From assembly GCA_020624805.1 (NCBI GenBank), contig JAHKVW010000009.1, positions 1-37,816 on the forward strand: DNA of 37,816 nt, in the 5' to 3' direction. A program made the position numbers and the translations under genes. Below are positions 15,923 to 22,617 of this stretch, one piece after another (position 1 is the first letter of the stretch; every line of letters begins with the position of its first letter). Origin of the DNA: a bacterium (GTDB lineage Bacteria; Bacillota; Clostridia; Oscillospirales; Acutalibacteraceae). The notes beneath the pieces were generated by a model that saw only the letters and a program-made list of their open reading frames with translations, was not told the origin of the DNA and did not search any database.

Positions 15923-15933
15923 TCAAAAAACTA

Positions 15934-15976
15934 CCGTGAATTTGAAGGCGCTTTCCTCAAATTCACGGTTTTTTTG
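15934..15976. terminator. Bidirectional rho-independent terminator
   Basis: CCGTGAATTTGA (15934-15945) and TCAAATTCACGG (15957-15968) form a perfect 12-bp stem. Seven T follow on the plus strand (15969-15975), and six A precede it (15925-15930), giving a T-run on the minus strand. It serves both the plus-strand lipoprotein gene and the convergent GTPase-ribonuclease gene. Confidence 0.93.
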
Positions 15977-16011: not shown

Positions 16012-18600
16012 TTATCGGGGCGTGTCACCGTCAATGATCGCCCTGATTTCTTTTTCCGCCGCGTCGATCTCCTCGCGGAATTCCCGCGCCGATACCCGTA
16101 TCGCGCCGTTGCCGAGGATGATCAGCTGTTCCATGCCGTCGGAGGTAACGACGCGAACGCGGTTGTTTTTTGCCAGCTTGTAGGAGGCGCGCTCGATGTA
16201 CATATCGGCGGTCTCGGCCTCTTTGGTATAGACGATGGTGATGTTATTGTACTTCTCAACTTCGCGCACGTGGCCTTTGATCTTGTAAGCGTCAAAGACG
16301 AGGATCAGCTCGCATTTTTTGTAGCCTTGATAATTACACAGGGTATTGATCAGCAGGTTGCGCGCGACGTCCATATGTTCGTTGACCATTTCGCGCAGGT
16401 TATCCCACGCGTGGATGATGTTGTAGCCGTCTACCAACACATATTCTACGCCGTTATAATCGGCGGGAAGATTCTTTTTCTTCTTTTGCTTTTGCGGATC
16501 GACGGTCTTGTAGCGCTTGGGTTCGCTGTACTGCTTTCGGCGCACGGGACCGTAGGTCTGCTCAAAGATCTGCATCAGCTCCTTGTCGGAGGCGAAAATG
16601 TCCTTTTGGTTCTTGAAGCGGGACAGATCCTTAGTCGGTGAAGGATCCGTACCACTGTCTTTCTTTTCGCTGAGCACAGAGGGAAGGTGCATATGCGAGG
16701 GCACTTCGTCCCATTTGACATTGTGTCCCGCGCCGTGAGAGCAGAACACTGAGTCCGCGGTGTTGTCGACGTCGCTGTCCGCGTCATAGCCGATCGCGGC
16801 GATCACCTCGTCGGCATTGTGACACGGCTCATACCCTTTCAACGCGGTGCTCAGGCTGCCGTTGCCGTGGGTGTACTGCATGACCTCCTTGGCGTAATCA
16901 CGCATGGTAGATACCGGCGCGGTACCGGTGAGCGTCGCGGTCTCGGCGTCGGTCTCGGGCGTTTCAAAGCTGCCGTGCATCCGTGTGATATCCGTCATCG
17001 CCCTGCCGATGTTCTCAGCGGGTACAGTCAGCGTAAAGCTGTAGATCGGCTCGAGCAGAACGCTTTGTGCCGAGCGCAGTCCCTGCCGTACCGCGCGGTA
17101 GGTCGCCTGACGAAAATCGCCGCCCTCGGTGTGTTTGGGATGCGCCTTGCCGGATTTGATGATGATCTCCATGTCGGTGATGGGGGAGCCTGTCAGTACG
17201 CCGATATGGGTCTTTTCATACAGATGGGTGAGGATCAGCCGCTGCCAGTTTTTGTCGAGCTTATCCTCGGGACATTCACTGCGGAATACCAGTCCGCTGT
17301 CGCGTTCGGCGGGCTGCAAAAGCAAATGTACCTCCGCGTAGTGGCGCAGGGGTTCAAAGTGTCCGACGCCCTCCACGGGTTCGGCGATGGTTTCTTTATA
17401 GATGATACTGCCCTGACTGAATCCGACGGAAAAGCCGAAGCGCTCTTCGATGATGCTTTGCAGGATCTCGAGCTGGATATCGCCCATCAGACGGAGCCGG
17501 ATCTCTTTATGATGCTCGTCCCACAGAATGTTCAGCTGAGGATCCTCTGCTTCCAGCAGGCGGAGCTTGGCAAGGGCGGTCTGCGCGTCGATCCCGTCGG
17601 GCAGGATGACGGAATAGGTGAGGACGGGCTCCAGCACCGGAAGTCCGGTATCGCTTTCCGCGCCGAGTCCGTCACCGGGCAGCGCAAAGGTGATCCCTGT
17701 CACCGCGCATACGGTTCCGCTTTCGGCGGCGTCGACGGTCGAGAATTTCTCTCCGTTATATACGCGGATCTGGTTCACTTTTTCTCCGTTTTTATTCTTC
17801 GCGGCATGCGGGACGGTCCTGACCTTCAGCTCTCCGCCCGTGATCTTCATGTGGGTGACCCTGCCGACCTGCTTGTCCTCGCTGATCTTGTATACCTTTG
17901 CGGCAAATTCCCTTCCGTAATCTTTCGCCGCAGTATATCGGTTCAATAACCGCAAAAAGTCCTCCACGCCGTCGAGCTTGAGCGCGGAACCGAACAAGCA
18001 GGGATAGAGATGACCCTTCGCAATCTCGCCGATGACGGCGGCGTCGCTGATACTGCCGTTATGATCGTATTCTTCAAGCAGATTCTCATCGCACAGGGCG
18101 ATGTTTTCATAGAGCTCCTCGGCGGAATTTGTGCTGAAATCGACGCAGTTGTCGCTGAGCTTGTTTTTCAGCTCGATAAGCACGCGCTCCTTTGAAGCGC
18201 CCTGCATATCCATCTTGTTGACGAACAGAAAGCAGGGCACATGGTATTTATGGAGCAGCTTCCACAGGGTAACGGTGTGGCTCTGCACGCCGTCGGTACC
18301 GCTGATGACCAAGATTGCGTAGTCGAGCACCTGCAAAGTACGCTCTGTCTCAGCGGAAAAATCAACATGTCCCGGCGTATCGAGCAGGGTGAACTCCGCG
18401 CCCTCGTATCGCAGGATCGCCTGCTTGGAAAAAATCGTGATACCGCGCTCGCGCTCCAGTTTGAAATTGTCGAGAAAAGAATCCTTGTGGTCGACTCTGC
18501 CGAGCCTTCTGATATTGCCCGACACATACATCATCGCCTCGGAAAGCGTTGTCTTGCCCGAGTCGACATGCGCCAGAATACCGATGACCGCCTTTTTCAT
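16012..18600 (-). CDS. TetM/EF-G-like ribosomal GTPase fused to Rae1/YacP-like NYN ribonuclease
   Basis: The protein has 862 residues from ATG 18600 (MKKAVIGILAHVDSGKTT), where TetM-family proteins begin; an open frame upstream would overlap the promoter. GTPase motifs: AHVDSGKTT (10-18), ERERGIT (switch I), DTPGH (74-78), NKMD (128-131). EF-G-like domains II-V follow to about residue 600. A linker of about 100 residues has ENTAD-like and SVFCSHGAGHN segments. Residues 718-862 (16015-16449) are a NYN/PIN-like domain close to Bacillus Rae1: VDGYNIIHAW, LVFDAYKIKGH, TKEAETADMYIE, VTSDGMEQ, with the acidic active-site residues kept. Tet(M) proteins are about 640 residues and lack this. Rae1 is known to cut mRNA in the ribosomal A site. 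I infer a GTPase that brings a nuclease to the ribosome; tetracycline protection is possible but unproven. Confidence 0.88.
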   Translation of the reverse strand: MKKAVIGILAHVDSGKTTLSEAMMYVSGNIRRLGRVDHKDSFLDNFKLERERGITIFSKQAILRYEGAEFTLLDTPGHVDFSAETERTLQVLDYAILVISGTDGVQSHTVTLWKLLHKYHVPCFLFVNKMDMQGASKERVLIELKNKLSDNCVDFSTNSAEELYENIALCDENLLEEYDHNGSISDAAVIGEIAKGHLYPCLFGSALKLDGVEDFLRLLNRYTAAKDYGREFAAKVYKISEDKQVGRVTHMKITGGELKVRTVPHAAKNKNGEKVNQIRVYNGEKFSTVDAAESGTVCAVTGITFALPGDGLGAESDTGLPVLEPVLTYSVILPDGIDAQTALAKLRLLEAEDPQLNILWDEHHKEIRLRLMGDIQLEILQSIIEERFGFSVGFSQGSIIYKETIAEPVEGVGHFEPLRHYAEVHLLLQPAERDSGLVFRSECPEDKLDKNWQRLILTHLYEKTHIGVLTGSPITDMEIIIKSGKAHPKHTEGGDFRQATYRAVRQGLRSAQSVLLEPIYSFTLTVPAENIGRAMTDITRMHGSFETPETDAETATLTGTAPVSTMRDYAKEVMQYTHGNGSLSTALKGYEPCHNADEVIAAIGYDADSDVDNTADSVFCSHGAGHNVKWDEVPSHMHLPSVLSEKKDSGTDPSPTKDLSRFKNQKDIFASDKELMQIFEQTYGPVRRKQYSEPKRYKTVDPQKQKKKKNLPADYNGVEYVLVDGYNIIHAWDNLREMVNEHMDVARNLLINTLCNYQGYKKCELILVFDAYKIKGHVREVEKYNNITIVYTKEAETADMYIERASYKLAKNNRVRVVTSDGMEQLIILGNGAIRVSAREFREEIDAAEKEIRAIIDGDTPR

Positions 18601-18634
18601 GGCATTACACTCTTTCGTGATGAACTGAGTATAG

Positions 18635-18662
18635 TTTATAATACGGTTCAAGGTTCTGTCAA
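18635..18662 (-). promoter_or_regulatory. SigA-type promoter for the GTPase-ribonuclease gene
   Basis: On the minus strand TTGACA (18662-18657), a 16-bp spacer and TATAAA (18640-18635), about 35 bp before ATG 18600. The -35 is a perfect consensus. Confidence 0.8.
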
Positions 18663-18936: not shown

Positions 18937-19085
18937 ATTTTTTAGTATGTATTGATATATTGGGTTATTATGTTCCGCACCCTTTGTCGGAATCGGCGAT
19001 AAGATGCATGCACAACAGCATGATGTTTCACGCGTCATCAGTGACGGAACGATATCGGCGGCAAGAGGCGGTGCGAGAGGTCAGG

Positions 19086-20825
19086 ATGAAGGATTTCAAA
19101 CAAATTCTGCACTATCTAAAACCATATACTGTATTCGTTGTGTTTTCCGTGATCTTTGTGATCTTTGAGGTCGCGTCCAACGTGCTCCAGCCGAAATATA
19201 TGGAGCAGATCGTTGATGACGGCGTTTTGCAGATGGATCTTGACGTCGTTTTCAAGGCGGGCGTGATGATGCTTTCGGTAGCGGTTATCGGCGGTATCTG
19301 CGGCTATATCTCATGCGTATTATCCAACATTTATTCGCAGCGATTCGGCAACTCGCTTCGCAAAACGCTGTTCAGGAAGATCATGTCGTTATCCGCTCAA
19401 CAGGATGACGCTTACACCGCCGGCTCGCTGATCACCCGCATGACGAATGATACGAGAGTCGTGACGGAGTTTTCGAGCGTTTTTATCCAGATGGCGGTAA
19501 AGCCGCTGATGCTGTTCTTGCTTGGGATCATCATGGTACTGACGATCGATCCGATCTATGGTATCATCCTGTTGGTATCCCTGCCGGTGCAGTTTTTGAT
19601 CATACGTTTCTTTATCAAAAGAAGTGCGCCGGTATTCGCGACGATCCAAAAAAAGCTGGACAGGCTGAACAGCTTTGCGATGCATATCGTTTCCAACAAC
19701 CGTCTGATCAAATCGTATGTCCGTGAAAACTACGAGGCAGGCAGATTTGATAACCAGAACCGTGATTTGACCTCGACGGTGATGAATATACAGGTGTTTA
19801 TGGCGATCCTTAATCCGCTTGTGATGTTGATTTTGAACGCCGTTGTTTTGGCGGTCATTTTCATCGGCGGGTTTCAGGTAGAGGCGAGGATGATCCGCGT
19901 CGGTTCCGTCATGGCGGCGATCAATTACTCACAGCAGATCATGATGTCGATGATGACGCTGGGCGGTATCTTCCAGTATGTCGCGCGCTCCAAGGTTTCT
20001 GCGGAGCGACTCACTGCCGTGCTCAACAGGGAGCCGGAATTGCCGTCAGGCAAGCAGATGATCGATCGGATCGACACGCTGTCCCTTTCTCATGTCAGCT
20101 TTCGCTACCCGCAGAATCAGGACGCACAGCGCAATGTACTTGAGGATATCTCTCTGGAGGTCCGCGGGGGTGAATGTATCGGGATCCTGGGTACGACAGG
20201 ATCCGGAAAGAGTACCATAGCCCGTCTGCTGATCCGCGAGTATGACGCAACGGACGGTCAGGTGACCTATAACGGCGTCGACGTGAAGGATATCGACACC
20301 AAAAGCCTGAGGGATCAGGTGTCGGTCGTGTTCCAGAACAGCGACATGTTTTCTGCCTCGCTGCGTGAGAATATCACCAAGGGCGCTGTGTTCTCGCGGG
20401 AGGACTTCGATACGGCGGTCCACTCCGCCTGCGTCGATGAATTTGCGGATGATCTGCGCGGCGGATATGACGCCGTGATCTCGGAGAGAGGCGCATCTCT
20501 TTCCGGCGGACAAAAACAGCGTGTGGCGATCGCCAGAGCGTTGCTTCGAGCTCCGCAGGTGTTGGTTTTTGACGACTGCACCTCCAGTCTTGATCTGGAG
20601 ACCGAGGCGAAGGTGCTCGAGAGGATCCGAACCAATTTCCGCGATAAGACCCGTATTTTTATTTCTCAGCGTATCTCCACGATCATGGGCGCCGATCGCA
20701 TCATCCTGATGGATGACGGTCGGGTGGTGGCTTTCGGAAGTCATCGGGAGCTGCTTGATTCGTGTGAATTATACCGTTCGATTTATCAGACTCAGAATCC
20801 CGAAGGGGGTGACGAGCTTGAATAA
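19086..20825 (+). CDS. ABC exporter half-transporter A (permease plus degenerate NBD)
   Basis: The protein has 579 residues from ATG 19086 (MKDFKQILHYLKPYT), preceded by GAGAGG; a TTG at 18960 opens the same frame but adds a polar stretch with no family match. There are six membrane helices, then a nucleotide-binding domain with Walker A GTTGSGKST and signature LSGGQKQR. Walker B reads VLVFDDC, with Asp instead of the catalytic Glu. This is the degenerate half of a heterodimeric exporter of the BmrCD/TM287-288 kind; the partner is the next gene, which keeps Glu. The substrate is unknown: drug, lipid, or a product made by the downstream enzymes. Confidence 0.92.
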   Translation: MKDFKQILHYLKPYTVFVVFSVIFVIFEVASNVLQPKYMEQIVDDGVLQMDLDVVFKAGVMMLSVAVIGGICGYISCVLSNIYSQRFGNSLRKTLFRKIMSLSAQQDDAYTAGSLITRMTNDTRVVTEFSSVFIQMAVKPLMLFLLGIIMVLTIDPIYGIILLVSLPVQFLIIRFFIKRSAPVFATIQKKLDRLNSFAMHIVSNNRLIKSYVRENYEAGRFDNQNRDLTSTVMNIQVFMAILNPLVMLILNAVVLAVIFIGGFQVEARMIRVGSVMAAINYSQQIMMSMMTLGGIFQYVARSKVSAERLTAVLNREPELPSGKQMIDRIDTLSLSHVSFRYPQNQDAQRNVLEDISLEVRGGECIGILGTTGSGKSTIARLLIREYDATDGQVTYNGVDVKDIDTKSLRDQVSVVFQNSDMFSASLRENITKGAVFSREDFDTAVHSACVDEFADDLRGGYDAVISERGASLSGGQKQRVAIARALLRAPQVLVFDDCTSSLDLETEAKVLERIRTNFRDKTRIFISQRISTIMGADRIILMDDGRVVAFGSHRELLDSCELYRSIYQTQNPEGGDELE

Positions 20826-22617
20826 TATGCGGCCCGGTGAACCGGGGGAGAGAGTAGCTCCCGCTCATCCCGGAAAAACCGTCAAAAGAATGTTTCGTTA
20901 TTTGTCACAAAGCCGCGGCGTGATCATTTGGATGCTGGTGCTGTTGGCGTTATCGACAATTTTGGAACTGTTTATCCCCGATCTGATCGGTCGTGCGATC
21001 GACACGCTGAATATCAGCGAATGGCAGTTGACCGTCAATTGGAGCAGCTTGTTGCTGATCCTCGGCATCCTGCTGTTATTGTTCATCTTTTCATCCCTGT
21101 TCAAGTATTTGCAGGGCAGGTTGGCGGCAAAGCTGACCCGAACCACGATCGTTACCATCCGAAAGGATGTATCTACCAAGCTCGTCCGTCTGCCGGTGTC
21201 CTTCTTTGATACCCACCAAAACGGTGATATCCTGGCACGACTGACGAATGATATCGAAAACGTTTCCAACCTGATCAGTCAGGCGATCGCGGCGCTGTTA
21301 TCCTCTGTGATCGTGATCGTCGGCTGTATCGTGATCATGCTGATCAAAAGTCCTATTCTCACGGCAGTCTGTATGAGTACGGTGGTATTGAATATCCTCG
21401 TCACCGTCATCCTGTCAAAGAAGATGTTCGGCTTTTTCAGAAAACAGCAGAAGGCTGTCGGAAAAATGAACAGCCATGTGGAGCAGAGCATCTCCAATAA
21501 ACGCACGATCGACGCGTACAACCTTGACGATGAGTGTATTGAGGAATGTGACGCCCTCAGTGATGAGCTGACTGACGTCAGCGTCAAGGCGCAGGTGCTG
21601 GGCGGCGCGATGCCTCCGCTGATGTGTCTGATCGGTAATCTGAACTTTTTGCTGATCGTAGCGGTCGGCGCATTGCTGTTCATTCGCGGCGGATTCGGTA
21701 TCACGATCGGTACCATTCAGGCGTTCACGCTGTATTCCAGAGAGTTTACTCAGCCCATCAATGAGCTTTCGTCTGTATTCTCCCAATTCATGACGGCGCT
21801 CGCCTCGGCGGAGAGGATCTTTCAGATCATCGACACACCGCCTGAGATCGATGATGGAGATCGGGACATCGTACCCGACAGTTCCTGCAGCATTACCTTT
21901 GAGCACGTGACCTTCTCCTATATCAGGGGCGTCAAGGTGCTGGATGATTTCTCCCTGACGATCGAAAAGGGACAGAAGGTCGCTTTGGTCGGCAAAACCG
22001 GCGTAGGAAAGACCACGCTGATCAGCCTTTTGATGCGCTTTTATGAGCCCGACAGCGGGCGTATCCTGATCGACGGGGTCGATATCAAAACGATCCCGAA
22101 ATCCCGTCTGAGAGGAATGATCACGGCAGTGCTCCAGAGCACGGCGGTCATCGATGGCACCGTCAGAGAGAACATCGCCTACGCGCGTTTTACCGCGACG
22201 GAGGAAGAGATCAAAAACGCGGCGCGTGTCAGCTGTGCCGAACCGTTTATCGAACGCTTGGAAAACGGATACGATACGCATGTGCAGGGTGAAGAGTCAA
22301 AGCTCAGTCAGGGTGAAAGACAGCTGCTGTGTCTGGCGAGATCTTCGCTGACCTCACCGTCTGTATTGATTTTGGATGAGGCGCTCAGCTCCGTCGATTC
22401 GGCGACCGAGCAGAAGATCCAGGACGCGCTGTTGTCGATGATGGAGGAGCAGACCTGTATCATCATCGCGCACCGATTGTCTACGGTCAAAAACGCCGAT
22501 AAGATCGCTGTGTTCAGCGACGGCAGGATCGTAGAAACCGGAGATCATAAAGAGCTGTTGCATCAACAAGGTGTTTATTACAGTTTATATAAAAACCAAT
22601 ATATAGGAGTTCAATAG
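20818..22617 (+). CDS. ABC exporter half-transporter B (permease plus active NBD)
   Basis: The protein has about 599 residues from TTG 20818, chosen because GGGGG (20804-20808) lies 9 nt upstream; ATG 20827 is the alternative. It overlaps half-transporter A by 8 bp. Six membrane helices precede an NBD with Walker A GKTGVGKTT, signature LSQGERQLL and Walker B VLILDEA with catalytic Glu, then an H-loop IIIAHRLST. With its neighbour it forms one consensus and one degenerate ATP site. Only 10 bp separate it from the radical SAM gene, indicating cotranscription. Confidence 0.92.
   Translation: MNNMRPGEPGERVAPAHPGKTVKRMFRYLSQSRGVIIWMLVLLALSTILELFIPDLIGRAIDTLNISEWQLTVNWSSLLLILGILLLLFIFSSLFKYLQGRLAAKLTRTTIVTIRKDVSTKLVRLPVSFFDTHQNGDILARLTNDIENVSNLISQAIAALLSSVIVIVGCIVIMLIKSPILTAVCMSTVVLNILVTVILSKKMFGFFRKQQKAVGKMNSHVEQSISNKRTIDAYNLDDECIEECDALSDELTDVSVKAQVLGGAMPPLMCLIGNLNFLLIVAVGALLFIRGGFGITIGTIQAFTLYSREFTQPINELSSVFSQFMTALASAERIFQIIDTPPEIDDGDRDIVPDSSCSITFEHVTFSYIRGVKVLDDFSLTIEKGQKVALVGKTGVGKTTLISLLMRFYEPDSGRILIDGVDIKTIPKSRLRGMITAVLQSTAVIDGTVRENIAYARFTATEEEIKNAARVSCAEPFIERLENGYDTHVQGEESKLSQGERQLLCLARSSLTSPSVLILDEALSSVDSATEQKIQDALLSMMEEQTCIIIAHRLSTVKNADKIAVFSDGRIVETGDHKELLHQQGVYYSLYKNQYIGVQ

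Follow-up and report, generated by a model that had tools for sequence, protein, structure and literature searches.

Few bacterial nucleases have been reported to cleave messenger RNA (mRNA) in the ribosomal A site, and Rae1 (YacP) of Bacillus subtilis is among them (PMC12320835, PMC6613710). This activity was described in 2017, as given in the two papers cited, after Atkinson 2015 (PMC4342817) had reported that Tet proteins of ten Clostridiales species had acquired a YacP-like NYN domain, for which a role in resistance or as a ribosomal RNA (rRNA) ribonuclease (RNase) was suggested. Among the matches listed in our literature search, that paper is the sole description of a GTPase-NYN fusion. 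Here we analyze a gene of this architecture found at positions 16012 to 18600 of a 37,816-nucleotide stretch of DNA (the window; contig JAHKVW010000009.1 of assembly GCA_020624805.1, from a bacterium of the Acutalibacteraceae). From the sequence comparisons described below, we read its product as a Rae1 carried by a translational GTPase, which would cut mRNA on stalled ribosomes in place of free Rae1, with a probability of around 0.5.

The window protein and those of Atkinson 2015 most likely belong to the same family, as both combine an EF2-type GTPase with a C-terminal YacP-like NYN domain and both come from Clostridia. The architecture itself is already in print, and what is added here is the separation from Tet proteins, the likely replacement of free YacP, a probable case of fission, the loss of the YacP tail and a conserved linker helix. 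The proteins were placed there within the Tet subfamily, whereas the tip loop, the family cut-offs and the tree place them here in a subfamily of their own, and the ten species reported there compare with 99 of 293 genomes of the class here, together with a near-exclusion of free YacP.

Architecture of the fusion protein

The open reading frame (ORF) lies on the minus strand with its stop end at 16012, and from the ATG at 18600 it encodes 862 amino acids (aa), a size that it shares with 15 of the 17 closest homologs among the matches listed; its longest mechanical start is a TTG at 18651. The following features were assigned to it.

16012..18600, minus strand: fusion gene, translational GTPase plus YacP/Rae1-type NYN domain, 862 aa (ORF, Pfam, homologs)
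17932..18588, minus strand: GTP-binding domain, residues 5-223 (Pfam PF00009, E-value (E) 2e-49)
17665..17907, minus strand: EF-G domain 2, residues 232-312 (Pfam PF22042, 32.2 bits, cut-off 27)
17422..17631, minus strand: EF-G domain III, residues 324-393 (Pfam PF14492, 27.1 bits, just over the cut-off of 27)
17065..17409, minus strand: EF-G domain IV, residues 398-512 (Pfam PF03764)
17110..17151, minus strand: domain IV tip loop GKAHPKHTEGGDFR, residues 484-497 (alignment)
16816..17061, minus strand: EF-G domain V, residues 514-595 (Pfam PF00679, E 2.9e-20)
16681..16815, minus strand: conserved extension after domain V, residues 596-640, SVFCSHGAG..VKWDEV (alignment, model)
16447..16680, minus strand: linker, residues 641-718 (structure model)
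16549..16590, minus strand: conserved short linker helix, residues 671-684, SDKELMQIFEQTYG (motif and model)
16039..16440, minus strand: YacP/Rae1-type NYN nuclease domain, residues 721-854 (Pfam PF05991; structures 5mq8/5mq9)

A single frame contains GTP_EFTU, EF-G_D2, EFG_III, EFG_IV, EFG_C and NYN_YacP, each above its own Pfam cut-off, which bears out the GTPase-NYN fusion claimed by the original prediction, and the G-domain motifs and the NYN motifs VDGYN, FDAYK, ETAD and TSD were found at the positions it gave. The 120 homologs listed (the best 120 of 7997 scored) are 67-92% identical to the window protein, and all of them contain GTP_EFTU, EFG_IV, EFG_C and NYN_YacP. Named fusion loci come from Ruminococcus, Oscillibacter, Gemmiger, Monoglobus, Lachnospiraceae and other hosts, with a full-length frame in 64 of the 80 loci kept and the DGYN motif in all 64 of these. 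Judged by its frame and its homologs, the fusion is a genuine, single and intact protein made of five translational-GTPase domains, a linker and an NYN domain. An origin by chance or by chimeric assembly was also considered and rejected, as the homologs carry the same architecture at 67-92% identity.

The nuclease part shows a clear relationship to Rae1. The NYN_YacP match has an E of 1.3e-48 and 165.5 bits for a cut-off of 24.6 (170.6 bits in the genome search), and when the NYN part alone was compared with solved structures (E 0.001), only B. subtilis YacP/Rae1 (5mq8/5mq9) was retrieved, with an E of 1.7e-25 and an alignment covering Rae1 residues 2-137. The acidic set D724, D770, D799 and D821 corresponds to Rae1 D7, D53, D81 and D104, which are conserved across 47 fused and 25 free sequences (Rae1 among them), the presence of D7 being partly by construction because the rows were cut out by a motif around it. 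In a 50-row alignment, D724, D770 and D799 were present in 50 of 50 rows and D821 in 49, and the place of Rae1 E78 is taken by Gln in 18 of the 47 fused and 5 of the 25 free rows. The nuclease domain is thus of the Rae1 type, as had been predicted, on the grounds of the match of the isolated part and its aligned acidic residues. Replacement of a conserved Asp in other NYN nucleases abolished RNA cleavage (PMC11346440), and by analogy the aligned Asp residues would form the NYN active site. The fold of this part was assessed by sequence only, and the structure matches listed by Foldseek and VIA, all of them EF-G/EF-2-family chains, cover residues 1-618.

Unlike B. subtilis Rae1, the window domain sits behind a GTPase and a linker, away from the contig that carries rlmB, and without the C-terminal part of YacP: it spans positions 1-140 of the 166 in the YacP profile, and part 141-166 is missing. 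The same was observed in most of the family, as the profile match ends at or before position 155 in 61 of 99 fused copies (the window's included, and also that of G071, whose match stops at 75), versus 1 of 87 free copies, with the C-terminal part kept in the other 86. It therefore looks from these matches as if most fused copies had lost the YacP tail and the GTPase had replaced a targeting tail.

The GTPase part has the G motifs and domains II-V of a translational GTPase of the EF2 family, with AHVDSGKTT from residue 10, T55, DTPGH at 74-78 and NKxD at 128-131, and none of the G1-G4 motif residues varies across an alignment of 50 sequences. Among solved structures, TetO and TetM are closest to it in sequence, followed by EF-G, and it shares with Tet(M)/Tet(O) the domain order G-II-III-IV-V. 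However, the "ribosomal-protection-type" label of the original prediction does not stand, since the tet_protect profile gives 411.2 bits for a cut-off of 775, the protein has Lys-489 at the aligned place of TetM Pro-509, and it branches outside the Tet-like rows of the tree. The scores for other Tet families are also far below their cut-offs (265 versus 1100 bits; 228.7 versus 1420 for Tet(M)), whereas L099, a genuine Tet-type protein from the same surveys, reaches 1001 bits and has YSPVSTP in its tip loop GLYYSPVSTPSDFR. Neither is the protein an EF-G, with 279.6 bits versus a cut-off of 659.4 and a separate branch in the tree. By loop, cut-off and tree, the GTPase is thus assigned to a subfamily of its own, apart from Tet-like proteins and EF-G, which also differs from Tet(M)/Tet(O) in the SVFC..G extension and the nuclease domain.

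Domain IV is the best conserved part, with a mean identity to the window protein of 0.74 versus 0.36-0.59 for the other parts in 29 fused proteins that were picked by the GYN and G1 motifs and not by the loop; being the most conserved domain, its tip probably matters to the protein. TetM Pro-509 lies in the drug site and touches C1054 (PMC8161019), and its place is occupied by Lys in 92 and by Gln in 1 of 93 fused proteins. The tip HxxHTxGGDF is found in 93 of 93, which for the 64 named ones is partly by construction, as these were found through the domain IV patterns GH(F/Y)EPLRH and HT(E/Q/D)GGDFR and a GGDF filter; Lys-489 falls outside the search patterns, and part of the remaining loop conservation is by construction. 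His-487 was aligned with the tip His of EF-G (HMMER alignment with S. aureus EF-G).

Non-fused relatives end at the conserved extension or soon after it. The linker that follows in the window protein has predicted local distance difference test (pLDDT) values below 50 over residues 646-674 and 681-714, and these stretches are predicted to be disordered, with a helix at 666-683 in the predicted model. The linker pattern EL..IF..(T/S)(Y/F/H) is present in 68 of 93 fused proteins, in a linker that is variable elsewhere, and divergent variants of the helix were seen in the 8 listed of the remaining 25; the pattern was not found in the set of non-fused proteins. This conserved helix is a possible docking element for a partner.

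Fused form and free YacP across genomes

The strongest clue to function comes from genome comparison: a genome with the fused form hardly ever has a free YacP as well. In a survey of 293 genomes of the class, a YacP domain above cut-off was found in 191, and both forms were told apart by open-frame length alone (at least 600 aa for fused, at most 220 aa for free). About a third of the genomes surveyed (99) tie the Rae1 domain to a translational GTPase, 87 have free YacP and six are in between. Both forms were present in one genome only (G284, where the GTPase occurs only as the fused copy), versus 29.4 expected if they were independent (Fisher p 3.6e-18, not corrected for phylogeny), and 98 of the 99 genomes with the fused form are without free YacP. 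Six family codes (f22, f23, f27, f28, f47 and f51) include both forms, the double genome belonging to f51.

The limits of these classes are set as follows. The six genomes with frames of 295-451 aa (G172, G156, G185, G235, G044 and G286) and G261, with a weak 27-aa match, were placed in neither class, and the Fisher table counts these seven as neither; the frames from G172 and G156 (L029 and L030) start at a contig end, and their NYN parts fall in the fused clade. Second YacP matches below the cut-off in G120, G174 and G208 were not counted. Two shorter frames of the fused class match the window protein over most of its length, that of G190 (618 aa) over residues 6-858 and that of G062 (734 aa, at a contig end) over residues 42-848.

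The window genome, which is 99% complete, has one YacP match, the fused one, and no separate Rae1/YacP was found in it by profile search, so the fusion likely does the job of Rae1 there. In free loci, rlmB lies directly before yacP in 20 of 25 (of the five others, L006 is truncated by the end of its contig); the rlmB of the window genome is on a different contig from its only YacP. Taken across the survey, these patterns suggest that the fused form likely replaced free Rae1/YacP in its hosts.

A non-fused GTPase with the same tip loop and SVFC..G..V extension as the fused family was found in 13 of 58 free-YacP genomes (14 copies), and none was found in the other 28 free-YacP genomes searched, a set that also held G286. 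One genome, G106, carries two non-fused copies (L071 and L079). In a second draw, at the phylum level, the GTPase was detected in 21 of 299 genomes, with frames of at least 857 aa in 18 and of 651-657 aa in 3; the class draw also contained six of these 21 genomes, that of the window among them.

In the GTPase tree (79 rows, 78 of them different, built with a quick method without bootstrap), the 45 fused rows form one clade with a Shimodaira-Hasegawa-like approximate likelihood ratio test (SH-aLRT) support of 100, the 20 non-fused rows are its sister group (SH-aLRT 82), and both the Tet-like rows and those of EF-G branch elsewhere, outside these two groups. The "Tet-like" label of seven rows is our own, and of five that were scanned one (L099) is above the Tet cut-off. 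A recent loss of the nuclease from the non-fused relatives was considered and rejected, as they form a sister group outside the fused clade.

The NYN tree leaves out the free row L028, whose LDGYN was not covered by the search pattern (its aligned Asp residues are present). In this tree, the fused rows group in a clade with support of 100/100, and a single free protein, that of G209, falls within it. This is a 173-aa NYN protein (L019 / L187:3287-3808, minus strand) whose gene has no GTPase match within the surrounding 9.5 kb, and a non-fused GTPase is encoded on another contig of the same genome. Its exact place inside the fused clade has moderate support only (83/86), and the simplest reading is that it is a probable fission product. 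This case suggests that the NYN domain is exchangeable between carried and free forms, as expected if the job of Rae1 is kept.

Proposed action and competing explanations

We predict that the fusion binds ribosomes in the manner of EF-G and likely cuts the mRNA of stalled ones, with a putative coupling to GTP. The GTPase would engage the factor site of a ribosome with an empty A site, domain IV would enter this site and, once GTP is hydrolysed, would withdraw, so that the tethered NYN domain could then enter and cut the A-site codon; the truncated message would be cleared by transfer-messenger RNA (tmRNA), which is present in the window genome. The steps would be sequential because domain IV and the Rae1-like domain need the same space. 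We hold only tentatively to a fuller version of this scheme, in which the protein is a GTP-gated A-site endonuclease of its own subfamily, with an HxKHTxGGDFR tip in place of the drug-displacing loop of TetM, whose domain IV would test whether the A site is empty and whose GTP hydrolysis would hand the site to the tethered Rae1 domain for cleavage of the codon, free Rae1 having been replaced in Ruminococcus-like bacteria, Lachnospiraceae and related gut Clostridia, and relatives being listed in databases as tetracycline resistance proteins. Such GTPase-guided cleavage of mRNA would be testable directly with one gene.

Several points weigh against a Rae1 carried by a GTPase. Domain IV and Rae1 should compete for space in the A site, making simultaneous action unlikely. 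One fused protein of the 50 aligned, L168, has Tyr at D821. The change of Arg-166 to Pro is listed with other rae1 suppressor mutations that are interpreted as loss of function (PMC6613710), and the missing tail includes the place of this Arg, so the domain may act differently from Rae1. A non-fused GTPase was found in 7 of 101 YacP-free genomes, two of them from the window's own family (and one of the seven, G203, with a broken GTPase frame); the subfamily thus lives without any YacP, which argues that it has work of its own. As only 13 of 87 free-YacP genomes have the non-fused GTPase, this protein and Rae1 are not generally partners. Finally, the near-exclusion of fused and free forms could be partly due to shared ancestry.

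The main rival is a fusion without coupling, in which the NYN domain would act like any other Rae1 and the GTPase would have a translational task of its own; the fusion would then serve only to keep both at equal amounts or near the ribosome, and GTP would not gate cleavage. We regard this as rather improbable, although it agrees with the existence of both parts on their own (free YacP in 87 of 293 genomes, and the non-fused GTPase in the 13 free-YacP and 7 YacP-free genomes), with the NYN domain being free again in G209, and with a linker that is long and mostly predicted to be disordered. By contrast, the conserved helix in that linker, not found in the non-fused proteins, and the tail loss in 61 of 99 fused copies both suggest co-adaptation, and in the tree of 79 rows no non-fused protein falls inside the single clade of the fused GTPases.

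It is less probable still that the protein is a ribosome quality-control RNase cutting rRNA or transfer RNA (tRNA) on the ribosome instead of mRNA. Maturation of rRNA and tRNA is one role proposed for the NYN domain, in the same paper that suggested the rRNA RNase role for the clostridial Tet proteins (PMC4342817), but the only solved relatives of this NYN domain by sequence are structures of Rae1, reported as a cutter of A-site mRNA.

Doubtful above all is the proposal in print (Atkinson 2015) of a tetracycline or other drug resistance protein helped by its RNase domain, since TetO and TetM as closest solved GTPases, the TetM family names of some relatives and the full-length copies in two large plasmid and two phage-filed records are set against a score of 411 bits where 775 would be needed and a genuine Tet-type protein has 1001, the absence of Pro-509 from all 93 fused proteins aligned, a separate clade, the lack of a common resistance cassette around the fused loci and the rarity of extensive matches in plasmids, these last two being detailed below.

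Neighbourhood, mobile records and database names

Upstream of the fusion gene there is a divergent pair of ATP-binding cassette (ABC) transporter genes, and the opposite strand downstream carries two small ORFs that match no NCBIfam family and the gene of a radical S-adenosylmethionine (SAM) tRNA-modification enzyme. The two MsbA-like transporter ORFs (18960-20825 and 20713-22617, mechanical calls) have 113 bases in common, and Tet(46) efflux subunits are among their weaker matches, with scores far below the cut-off. When 689 mechanically called ORFs from 69 fused loci were clustered, the fusion included, no neighbour family was found in more than 8 loci, so the context gives no function. MutS2 is present in the window genome. 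No Rfam match was found in the window at the gathering threshold, no family of the PADLOC defence library was matched, and in the PHROG library one "translation elongation factor" matches residues 1-638 only.

Two signals flank the gene.

18633..18662, minus strand: promoter-like site TTGACA-18-TAAACT, about 32 nt before the ATG (consensus match alone)
15933..15969, minus strand: terminator-like hairpin and T-run, 15 pairs, downstream of the fusion gene (pattern match alone)

In the region, 5 promoter-like matches were found versus 3.0 in shuffles, and 3 terminator-like matches versus 4.0. The putative promoter, a match to the consensus alone, would leave little room for a leader.

A match to the protein was found in 163 plasmid records, covering at least 80% of the query in only 2. 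Two large plasmid records and two phage-filed entries contain the full-length fusion, which can therefore be carried by mobile DNA. The phage-filed records, MT835563.1 and MT835514.1, are unannotated "Bacteriophage sp." entries from human stool, with 55% and 51% identity, respectively, and may be bacterial contigs filed as phage or cases of prophage carriage.

Relatives such as WP_320690501.1 are named "Translation factor GTPase family protein", a public name that they share and that leaves the nuclease unmentioned. The homologs P0022 and P0026 and the Agathobacter rectalis protein WP_306784676.1 carry a TetM/TetW/TetO/TetS family name, in agreement with the earlier suggestion that annotation as Tet-type resistance may hide the nuclease. 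Some "TetM family" calls in gut bacteria are thus likely to be translation-control nucleases and not resistance genes. Plasmids of Ligilactobacillus salivarius (for example NC_007930.1, 226555-228444) encode a protein around 50% identical to residues 1-638, which is named TetM family in 22 of 23 records among the matches listed and is possibly another mislabelled, non-fused member.

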